Source: an uncultured Rhodospirillaceae bacterium | GTDB taxonomy: Bacteria > Pseudomonadota > Alphaproteobacteria > UBA8366 | Assembly (NCBI GenBank): GCA_913043025.1 | Contig: CAJWLM010000005.1 | Coordinates: 1 to 64,000, forward strand | Length of the DNA: 64,000 nucleotides | Reading direction: 5' to 3' | Shown: positions 47,840 through 50,960 of the stretch, piece by piece | How the letters are laid out: the number at the start of each line of letters is the position of its first letter | How positions within the stretch are numbered: position 1 is the stretch's first letter | Notes under the pieces: model-generated | The model's database searches: none | What the model was told of the DNA's origin: nothing | The model's input: the letters and a program-made list of their open reading frames with translations, nothing else | Translations under genes and position numbers: made by a program

Positions 47840-48715
47840 GTGGTTGAATTGCAGGTCATATCAGATGCCAAAAATTCACTTGGCGAAGGGCCGATGTGGA
47901 ACATTCGGGAGAATGCACTTTACTGGACAGATGCGAAAGGGCATCCACGAGTGCAGAGGTGGGAGCCAAAAACCGGAAAGATAGATGAGTGGGAGATGCC
48001 TGATGTAATCGGCTCATTTGTTTTTCGCAAAACTGGCGGACTGATTACTGCTCTGAAATCAGGTTTCTATAAGTTTGATTTAGAAAAATCTGAAGCTGAA
48101 AAATTCTACGACCCTGAACCGGCTTCTCCAACAACTCGTCTAAATGATGGCAAATGTGATCGACACGGGCGTTACTGGTGCGGATCTCTGGACGACAGCG
48201 GAAGGCCTGGCGGGGCGCTTTATCGCGTTGACCCAGACCTCAGAGTTCACAAAATGGATGAAGGCGTAAAGTGTTCCAATGGTATTGCTTTCAGTCCTGA
48301 TGATAAGTTTATGTACTTTTCTGATTCCCGCAACGGAACCTGCTGGAGATATAATTACGATTTAAACAACGGCCAAATAGCTAACAAAACACTCTGGGTT
48401 GACAATCGCGGCAAGCAAGCTCGAATAGATGGAGCAACTGTAGATTCTGAGGGATTTTACTGGGCAGCTCACATACGCCATTGGGAAATTGCCAAGTATG
48501 CACCTGACGGCACGATAATGGAAACTATCGAGTTACCCGTGCAGCACCCGACAATGTGCACATTTGGAGGAGAAAATCTTGATATTCTATTCGTAAGTTC
48601 GGGTACAATTTTCTTAAAAAGGGAGCAGATGGAGGAGCAGCCGCTTGCTGGAGCCCTTTTCGCTATTCATGGAACCGGTGCGACCGGTCTTCCTGAACCA
48701 TTCTTTGCGGGATAA
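47840..48715 (+). CDS. SMP-30/gluconolactonase-like protein
   Basis: 291-aa six-bladed beta-propeller hydrolase. GTG start with GGAGGAATAGA directly upstream. Metal-binding residues are in the expected places: LGEGPMWN (Glu), TTRLNDGKCDRHGRYWCGS (Asn/Asp), CSNGIAFSPDDKFMYFSDS (Asn, Asp) and IDGATVDSEGFYWAAH. Likely lactone hydrolysis in sugar-acid catabolism, for example on arabinono- or gluconolactone. The stop codon is only 6 nt from the 3' end of the opposite-strand tRNA gene. Confidence 0.9.
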   Translation: MVELQVISDAKNSLGEGPMWNIRENALYWTDAKGHPRVQRWEPKTGKIDEWEMPDVIGSFVFRKTGGLITALKSGFYKFDLEKSEAEKFYDPEPASPTTRLNDGKCDRHGRYWCGSLDDSGRPGGALYRVDPDLRVHKMDEGVKCSNGIAFSPDDKFMYFSDSRNGTCWRYNYDLNNGQIANKTLWVDNRGKQARIDGATVDSEGFYWAAHIRHWEIAKYAPDGTIMETIELPVQHPTMCTFGGENLDILFVSSGTIFLKREQMEEQPLAGALFAIHGTGATGLPEPFFAG

Positions 48716-48721
48716 TAAAAA

Positions 48722-49013
48722 TGGTGCGCCCGACAGGATTCGAACCTGTGGCCCCCAGATTCGTCACACTACAACTTTCGTTGCCACCCCAAATTTGTGG
48801 AGTGTTTGTGCGCTGGACTTTCTCTTCATCATACCAACAAATGTTGGCTTAGATGCCGCCCGTAAAGTCTCTACACCGTTCCCTAATGGGACTTGGCTCG
48901 GGATTGCCATTCTACAGGTTTCCCCGACTTTGAGCGATTCTACACTTAGAGTTTCCCCTAAGGCACCCAATTTCTTAGGAATCTGGTGCTCTATCCAACT
49001 GAGCTACGGGCGC
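48722..49013 (-). tRNA. tRNA-Arg(CCU) interrupted by a group I intron
   Basis: Read on the minus strand, the 5' exon (49013-48977, 37 nt) gives acceptor GCGCCCG, D-arm GCTCAGTTGGATAGAGC, anticodon stem CCAGA and loop start TTCCT. The 3' exon (48761-48722, 40 nt) gives AA, stem TCTGG, variable GGGCC, T-arm ACAGG-TTCGAAT-CCTGT, acceptor CGGGCGC, discriminator A and encoded CCA. Joined, they form a perfect 77-nt cloverleaf with a seven-base anticodon loop TTCCTAA, so the anticodon is CCU. The intervening 215 nt are described separately. Without splicing the tRNA cannot function, and it may be the only decoder tuned to AGG. Confidence 0.96.
48762..48976 (-). ncRNA. Group I self-splicing intron in tRNA-Arg(CCU), 215 nt, no ORF
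   Basis: The 5' exon ends in U (48977) and the intron ends in G (48762), the group I rule. The internal guide GGG can pair with exon CCU as a 3-bp P1. P2 is CTTAGGG-GAAA-CTCTAAG (48945-48962), closed by a GNRA loop. Conserved elements in order: P (CAAAGTCGGGGAAACC, 48917-48932), Q (AATCCCGAGCC, 48895-48905), R (TGTAGAGACTTTACGG, 48860-48875) and S (GAAGAGAAAGTCC, 48815-48827); AGACT of R pairs with AGTC of S as P7. Small size, short P1 and tRNA location match the tRNA-intron subgroup known from Agrobacterium tRNA-Arg(CCU) and Azoarcus tRNA-Ile. No homing endonuclease is present. Confidence 0.93.
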
Positions 49014-49328
49014 TAGATTTTTATAGACCCAATATTCATAGCTTGATGTGCTTCTAAATGAAATTAAAACTTTGGACGCTCATCGAGGCAAGACCTGAAT
49101 AATTTCGCAACTTCTTTTTATTTTTTGGGCGATGTGCACAAATCTAAAAGAATTTTATTTTTCGCTCACACTAGAACTAAAAATCTACCTGCACCGCTAT
49201 CATTGTTATTGTAGGAATGTTTTCTAACTATTTGCAGTTTTTGAACGGTGGCCTTGATATTGTATTGAAGTCTCGTGGCCAATACTGAAGCATTTCATCC
49301 GAAAATCGCTCTAACATTCGCAACAACG
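49014..49328. other. 315-nt gene-free region upstream of the tRNA
   Basis: Lies between the tRNA 5' end and the PagL-like gene, both on the minus strand. The tRNA promoter must be here; TATAAAAAT ends a few bases before the tRNA but is too close to be a clear -10 for a mature start. AT-rich, with no further feature seen. Confidence 0.4.
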
Positions 49329-49883
49329 CTATTTGTCGGTAAACAGGCTTTTCAGCGGATGAGAATAAACCAACATCACTGTTTCGGTCCCTGGGTTATT
49401 GTCACCAATGTTTGCATTTGAGAGATGTGTGATTCCAACACCAAGCCGTGCTCGGTTATCAAATCGCCAAGCCAGTTCCACACCAGACCGAAATTCGAGT
49501 ACATGACCTAAATCCTGACCCTCCCCATCTAGGTAGAAGCCGACGGCTGAGCCCAAATTAAGCACTATCCGACGCCCAAAAAAAATGTCTCCCGACAGGC
49601 CAAACCATCCGTAAATACTTGCATCGGTAGTACCCAGTACGCCAAGAGATGGACGAATGTGAAGCAATTCCAAATCTGGCCCTGCTCGGTATTCGATACT
49701 GAATGCCCCTGCCTGATCTCTATCTGCACAACAACTACCAATATCACCAGCGCCTAATTTGATGAAAGCGGGATCTTCATTAGCTGCGCTCGCCACCGGC
49801 ACCACAATTGATAATGCCAACAGCAAATAAACAAAAAAGGCCGAGCCTAATGAGGCAAGGCGAATGGGTGTCATTTTAGACAC
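49329..49883 (-). CDS. PagL-like lipid A 3-O-deacylase (acyloxyacyl hydrolase family)
   Basis: 184 aa with an N-terminal signal peptide (hydrophobic residues ~13-31, likely cleavage after ASA near residue 33). The remainder alternates like an outer-membrane beta-barrel and ends in a C-terminal hydrophobic strand. The PagL catalytic signature HLSNANIGDNNPG is present near the end (H153, S155). It removes the 3-O-acyl chain of lipid A in the outer membrane in characterised relatives. Near the GT2/LAB_N/GT39 genes, it strengthens the envelope-remodelling theme of this region. Confidence 0.8.
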   Translation of the reverse strand: MSKMTPIRLASLGSAFFVYLLLALSIVVPVASAANEDPAFIKLGAGDIGSCCADRDQAGAFSIEYRAGPDLELLHIRPSLGVLGTTDASIYGWFGLSGDIFFGRRIVLNLGSAVGFYLDGEGQDLGHVLEFRSGVELAWRFDNRARLGVGITHLSNANIGDNNPGTETVMLVYSHPLKSLFTDK

Positions 49884-49982: not shown

Positions 49983-50960
49983 TCAAGTATCACTAATTTT
50001 TTTTGTTGATCTAAAATCATTGGTTGCCTTTATCAAAGCCCTCATTATACCAGGCTCCATAGCTGAATGACCAGCGTCTGGGACGACAGTGTATTCCGCC
50101 TTCGGCCATGCACGGGATAAAATATCAGCACTTTGTATAGGACAAACCATATCGTAACGACCTTGAACGATTGCTCCAGGAATATCCTGCAATATTTCAA
50201 ACTTCTGTACCAATTCATCTTTTTCTAGGAACAAATTGTTACGGAAATAATGCGCTTCAATTCTTGCAAGCCCAAGGGCCCGATTTGGATTTTCGAAAAC
50301 GGATCCGATTTCGGGGCTCAACCTTAACGTTGAGCACGATGCTTCATAACGGCACCACGCTTGGGCAGCAGCCATGTGTACCTCTGGATCTGGATCAATT
50401 AATCGCTCATAATAAGCACCCAGAATATCCTGCCTCTCAGTCGGCGGAAGGAATTCGATAAACGCTCTCCATGCCTCAGGAAAAATTGCCCCCATCCCCT
50501 TCAGAAACCATTCAATCTCATGGTCTCGACAAAGGAATATACCTCTAAGAACGAGTGCAAAACACCTTTCCGCGTGAGCGTAAGCATAGGCTAGAGCTAA
50601 GCTAGAGCCCCATGAGCCACCAAATACTAACCATTTTCCAACTCCAAGGTGGTTTCTCAGTACTTCTAAGTCTGAAATAAGGTGGGGAGTGGTATTTTCA
50701 TCAAGACGACCTAGAGGCACAGACCGACCAGAACCCCGCTGATCTAAAATGATAATACGATAGTGGGCTGGGTCAAAAAACCTCCGGTGCACAGGCGTTG
50801 CACCAGAGCCCGGTCCCCCATGCAAGAACAAAGCTGGCATTCCATCTGGGTTACCGGATTCTTCCCAGTAAAGGCGATGATAGTCATCTACATCCAAGAT
50901 ACCAGTGCGATAAGGTTCAATTTCGGGGTAGAGGTCCGAAAGGTGCAGAGCAGTATTCAT
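49983..50960 (-). CDS. pip: Proline iminopeptidase
   Basis: 325-aa alpha/beta hydrolase (peptidase family S33) cleaving N-terminal proline from peptides. ALFLHGGPGSGATP (oxyanion region), LDQRGSGRSVPLG, nucleophile Ser in FGGSWGSSLALAYA, Asp in VQGRYDMVCP and His in VPDAGHSAMEPG are all present, and the N-terminus LYPEIEPYRTGILDV fits the family. Cytosolic. Divergent from the M48 protease gene. Confidence 0.95.
   Translation of the reverse strand: MNTALHLSDLYPEIEPYRTGILDVDDYHRLYWEESGNPDGMPALFLHGGPGSGATPVHRRFFDPAHYRIIILDQRGSGRSVPLGRLDENTTPHLISDLEVLRNHLGVGKWLVFGGSWGSSLALAYAYAHAERCFALVLRGIFLCRDHEIEWFLKGMGAIFPEAWRAFIEFLPPTERQDILGAYYERLIDPDPEVHMAAAQAWCRYEASCSTLRLSPEIGSVFENPNRALGLARIEAHYFRNNLFLEKDELVQKFEILQDIPGAIVQGRYDMVCPIQSADILSRAWPKAEYTVVPDAGHSAMEPGIMRALIKATNDFRSTKKISDT

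Follow-up and report, generated by a model that had tools for sequence, protein, structure and literature searches.

IC3-type group I introns are known in cyanobacterial tRNA-Leu, in Azoarcus tRNA-Ile and in Agrobacterium tRNA-Arg(CCU), where a group IC3 intron was reportedly described by Reinhold-Hurek and Shub in 1992. We describe here the intron that interrupts a tRNA-Arg(CCU) gene in the window, by which we mean the whole 64-kb stretch of DNA that was analysed. The Agrobacterium intron has the same host tRNA and anticodon, also lies in the anticodon loop, is likewise alphaproteobacterial and is not known to carry an endonuclease; the window intron measures 215 nt. The IC3 ribozyme of Azoarcus tRNA-Ile(CAU) resembles the window intron in being compact and devoid of P5abc, in carrying GNRA loops on P2 and P9 and in its insertion in the anticodon loop, whereas it differs in host tRNA and guide sequence and is slightly shorter. 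The tRNA-Leu(UAA) introns of cyanobacteria, plastids and alphaproteobacteria have the same fold, and most of those compared were 62-73% identical to the window intron; however, they are inserted after position 34, inside the anticodon, and the window intron after position 36 of tRNA-Arg. Group I introns are established in the tRNAs of alpha- and betaproteobacteria (PMC4033280), and for the alphaproteobacterial ones this source refers to the 1992 paper. The window intron is ordinary in kind, a further IC3 tRNA intron of a type already known.

Structure and Detection of the tRNA-Arg(CCU) Gene

Joining the minus-strand exons 49013-48977 and 48761-48722 (GCGCCCGTAGCTCAGTTGGATAGAGCACCAGATTCCT+AATCTGGGGGCCACAGGTTCGAATCCTGTCGGGCGCACCA) gives a 77-nt tRNA-Arg(CCU) with an encoded CCA, and ARAGORN recovered a complete cloverleaf from this spliced sequence. 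When run in intron mode on the unspliced DNA, the program returned the same gene as (cct)i(38,215), with the insertion ttcct-intron-aatct, which places the intron between nucleotides 36 and 37 of the anticodon loop. The exon boundaries proposed in the initial annotation, which had joined the two halves into an intact tRNA-Arg(CCU), thus agreed base for base with those found in both modes. The gene is present as a single copy in the genome. The features of the locus are provided in Table 1.

Table 1. Features of the interrupted tRNA-Arg(CCU) gene (positions in the window)
Feature	Positions	Strand	Sequence and evidence
5' exon of tRNA-Arg(CCU)	48977-49013	-	3' end TTCCT; holds the whole anticodon CCU, position 36 last; ARAGORN, spliced and unspliced
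Group I intron, IC3-like, 215 nt	48762-48976	-	Starts AAGAAATTGGG, ends GTGTGACG; terminal omega-G 48762; RF00028, 53.2 bits; P1-P9 covariation
3' exon of tRNA-Arg(CCU)	48722-48761	-	AATCTGG... through the encoded CCA; ARAGORN; 100% match to same-genus genome
P1	48966-48979	-	Exon C48979-C48978-U48977 with guide GGG 48968-48966; loop closed by AA-GAAA-UU; sequence, Rfam alignment, helix test
P2 hairpin	48945-48962	-	CUUAGGG-GAAA-CUCUAAG; 7-bp stem, GAAA tetraloop 48955-48952; both-side changes in 7/7 pairs
P7 5' strand, R element	48865-48869	-	GACUU, pairs with AAGUC 48820-48816; 100% of cells paired
P8 with 11-nt tetraloop-receptor-like motif	48827-48855	-	UCUAAG 48853-48848 / UAUGA 48833-48829; sequence and alignment
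P7 3' strand, S element	48816-48820	-	AAGUC; structure map and covariation
P9b hairpin	48771-48784	-	GCAAC-GAAA-GUUGU; second GNRA loop, GAAA 48779-48776; structure map and covariation

The expectation that ordinary tRNA finders would miss this gene was borne out. ARAGORN with default settings, without intron mode, found no tRNA in the 64-kb window, and a genome-wide Rfam tRNA search gave 39 matches, none of them at the tRNA-Arg(CCU) locus. The authors of tRNAscan-SE state that their program was not built for detecting group I introns in tRNAs (PMC8450103). Routine annotation loses such genes, and default tRNA searches of the window genome would give it no tRNA-Arg(CCU). Two other signals overlap the locus. 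A plus-strand ORF of 123 aa (48645-49016), antisense to the tRNA and the intron, was taken as mechanical, and a match to the HPnc0260 antisense RNA, below the cut-off and over the 3' end of the tRNA on the opposite strand, was set aside.

Identification as a Group I Intron

The covariance search gave a minus-strand match to the Rfam group I family RF00028 at 48987-48787, with an E-value of 1.1e-10 for the window and a score of 53.2 bits that is near the curated cut-off of 50 bits. This match, which upheld the initial reading of the 215-nt insert as a group I intron, was the sole Rfam match over cut-off in the window and the only one to RF00028 in the 3.08-Mb genome. The minimum free energy fold of the whole precursor was more stable than all of 200 shuffled sequences (z = -3.5), a fold used for the z-score only, since it cannot represent a pseudoknot and so does not model the active structure.

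A structure of 13 helices (P1-P9, with the P3/P7 pseudoknot) was tested for covariation by aligning 20 related introns from tRNA genes. Paired cells amounted to 91.7%, against a shuffled mean of 76.1%, and changes on both sides were found in 42 of the 60 pairs, against 26.2 in shuffled alignments (none of 500 reached as many) and 16-24 in slid controls. The covariation score was 0.473, compared with 0.187 for shuffled alignments and no more than 0.125 when the structure was slid. Being hand-drawn on the window intron, the structure has an advantage over its slid versions, although the counts of both-side changes do not depend on that alone. P3, P4, P6, P7 and the outer part of P8 were paired in 100% of cells and never broken, and the fifth and last pair of P7 occurred as UA, AU and GC. 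The RF00028 match and the alignment both show the conserved catalytic core of P3-P4-P6-P7-P8 with the P3/P7 pseudoknot. Covariation support for P1 was partial (61.7% of cells paired), as the guide sequence changes along with the exon of each host.

Intron Anatomy and Subgroup

P1 has the sequence CCU-AA-GAAA-UU-GGG, with the wobble pair U48977·G48968 at the 5' splice site. P3 (CGCUC/GGGCG) forms a pseudoknot with P7; P4 is UCGGG/CCCGA, P6 and P6a are short, and P8 is followed by P9, P9a and P9b. The U/G boundary, the GNRA-capped P2 and the P, Q, R and S core elements noticed at the outset were all present. A terminal G was found in all the related introns listed except one, the boundary of which is uncertain. 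P5 is a 12-nt hairpin (CCUGUAGAAUGG) and the P5abc extension is absent, in keeping with the IC3 subgroup, which has no P5(a-d) regions (PMC11835236). Insertion in the anticodon loop is also an IC3 trait, as are the GNRA loops on P2 and P9 and the receptor sequence in P8, whose contacts are predicted; the receptor-like motif in P8 is the probable dock of the P2 GAAA loop. The layout fits the IC3 subgroup.

In the list of window ORFs, none of at least 90 aa was contained in the intron, which at 215 nt is too short to encode a homing endonuclease; the enzyme had rightly been described as missing. The suggestion that the intron is nearly minimal in size did not hold, given that related introns run from about 200 nt (200-210 nt in the shortest) and that the Azoarcus ribozyme has 197 nt (PMC12373953). 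With 215 nt, the window intron is compact and sets no record.

From gene structure, fold and conservation, the insert is almost certainly a compact group I intron of the IC3 (tRNA) type that holds no ORF and separates nucleotides 36 and 37 in a tRNA-Arg(CCU) gene of single copy; by the chemistry known from its family, it would splice to leave a mature tRNA. It is very unlikely that it is instead a decayed group I intron that has lost splicing, in which case tRNA-Arg(CCU) would be dead and tRNA-Arg(UCU) would do its work. The modest RF00028 score and the presence of a tRNA-Arg(UCU) gene in the genome would agree with decay, but the catalytic helices are all intact, the exons form a complete cloverleaf and are identical to those of the same-genus genome, and the length of the intron is unchanged in that genome. 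Moreover, several differences between the introns preserve pairing (G·U to A-U in P2, U·G to C-G in P9a and C-G to U·G in P6a). A non-group-I insert, whether inserted by chance or a tRNA intron of the archaeal bulge-helix-bulge type, has a negligible probability: the site in the anticodon loop, beside the anticodon, is like that of archaeal and eukaryotic tRNA introns (PMC4033280), but the Rfam match, the P3-P9 core with its pseudoknot and covariation, the terminal G and the U·G wobble all count against it.

Proposed Splicing and Role of the tRNA

Group I splicing begins when an exogenous guanosine, held in P7, attacks at the 5' splice site; the exon released in this step then attacks after the intron's terminal G (PMC3984707). 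As all the required elements are present, we infer guanosine-initiated splicing for the window intron. The precursor tRNA would be transcribed whole and the intron would fold around P3-P9, with guanosine bound in P7. The guanosine would attack after U48977, positioned by the U·G wobble of P1, and the freed exon would then attack after the terminal G48762, so that the 215-nt intron is released and an AGG-reading tRNA is formed.

AGG accounted for about 11% of the arginine codons (106 of 924) in 35 long ORFs, a count restricted to mechanical ORFs in the window with a length of 250 aa or more. The genome also encodes tRNA-Arg(UCU), tRNA-Arg(CCG) and tRNA-Arg(ACG). The interrupted tRNA-Arg(CCU) is probably useful, and it may not be strictly essential: tRNA-Arg(UCU) could also read AGG by wobble, so that failure to splice need not kill the cell.

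Distribution of the Intron

The intron is shared within the genus and patchy in the wider family. A second genome of the genus (G002) carries it at the same site, with the same length of 215 nt, 94.4% identity and exon halves that are 100% identical, in a tRNA-Arg(CCU) gene that is split over two contig ends. In the other same-genus genome, which is 84% complete, neither the tRNA-Arg(CCU) gene nor the intron was found. The tRNA-Arg(CCU) of seven further family members is uninterrupted, with TTCCTAA intact. In six of them the gene adjoins orthologues of the window genes at 49329-49883 and 49983-50960, which identifies it as the same locus and lets the empty state of the exact site be read directly. 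The initial suggestion that the intron may be inherited vertically has to be qualified: the intron is shared with G002 within the genus, but the orthologue is uninterrupted in most of the family.

In two of these seven genomes (G005 and G009), tRNA-Thr(CGU) is itself interrupted at position 36/37 by a related intron with 72% identity to that of the window. The tRNA-Thr(CGU) locus of the window genome is uninterrupted, with orthologous genes on both flanks. Outside the genus, the closest intron (75.8% identity) was that in tRNA-Thr(CGU) of G014, which belongs to another family of the same order and has one neighbouring gene in common with the Thr locus of the window genome. The three Thr(CGU) introns, which are 72-76% identical to the window intron, share its 36/37 position and its small P5; they differ in their threonine host and in the guide, which tracks the exon in the alignment, being GCG for CGU and GGG for CCU. 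Presence and absence hence differ at both the Arg and the Thr locus within one family, which implies gain or loss at both. The Thr(CGU) introns at 36/37 were located in L004, L005 and L008 (about 1432-1723, 1438-1729 and 1471-1765), from two families of the same order; ARAGORN gave the third as tRNA-Ile. A limited open-access literature search, which is a weak test, found no report of tRNA-Thr(CGU) as a group I intron host. A further genome of the family (G004) carries an intron in tRNA-Leu(UAA).

At a threshold of E <= 0.001, RF00028 matched in 6 of the 11 genomes of the family and in 31 of the 385 sampled genomes of the class (about 8%), a frequency that tempers the earlier description of such introns as rare. 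The hosts include Leu(UAA), Lys, Gly(CCC), Arg(CCU) and Thr(CGU); they were reread from the exons because the isotypes given by ARAGORN in intron mode were wrong for several (for example, the Thr(CGU) of G014 was called Ile). Lysine-tRNA introns of the class (L010, L019, L024, L026 and L036) form a clade with 99/99 support and have insertion points unlike those of the Arg and Thr introns. In L036 (the G090 tRNA-Lys intron), P8 carries a short repeat of AACGCAAGGGGG-like units, which suggests an expansion inside a peripheral loop. High RF00028 scores were also obtained outside tRNA genes, in G008 and G253 (L003 and L015, about 1501-1730), where the matches may lie in protein-coding sequence.

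Three Arg(CCU) introns came out of a pattern scan of contigs that was probably too strict to reveal others; one was part of the set before, one belongs to a SAR116 genome and one to a Verrucomicrobia MAG. The last (contig L042, 5462-5760) is a group I intron of 222 nt (71.4 bits) in tRNA-Arg(CCU), diverged from those of alphaproteobacteria, and could be the result of transfer or mis-binning.

Origin of the Intron

The Arg and Thr introns form, together with one Leu intron, a single group with 96/90 support, and a second tree left out two long-branch Arg introns (from the Verrucomicrobia MAG and G296) because their placement was unsure. AU tests of an Arg lineage, an Arg plus Thr clade and a Thr clade rejected none of the three (p = 0.24-0.33), and the tree does not discriminate among a move from one tRNA to another, lateral transfer and loss. 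As an alternative to a move from tRNA-Thr(CGU) within the order, transfer from another intron-bearing tRNA-Arg(CCU), for instance of SAR116-like bacteria, or ancestry in Arg with loss elsewhere in the family, has a probability that we place slightly below even. The Arg(CCU) introns of the SAR116 genome and of G199/G068 fall inside the same 96/90 group, and a single Arg(CCU) clade is compatible with the data (p-AU 0.24). Nevertheless, a clade of the window Arg intron with the Thr introns is likewise compatible (p-AU 0.33), the Arg locus keeps the gene neighbourhood of the family, and outside the genus it is the order's Thr(CGU) intron that lies nearest, both in identity and along the tree.

The same lineage of introns is found in tRNA-Thr(CGU) of related genera, and perhaps the intron, which encodes no homing endonuclease, has moved between tRNA genes. 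In its specific form, an endonuclease-free intron would have jumped within one order from Thr CGU to Arg CCU, and possibly to Leu UAA, between loop positions that match or nearly match, with its guide refitted to each new exon; we advance this tentatively, at a probability somewhat below even. If true, such a jump between tRNAs would represent natural ectopic spread, for example by reverse splicing followed by recombination. Among close relatives, each of two tRNA loci occurs both empty and filled, which offers a clean system for following how endonuclease-free introns are gained and lost.
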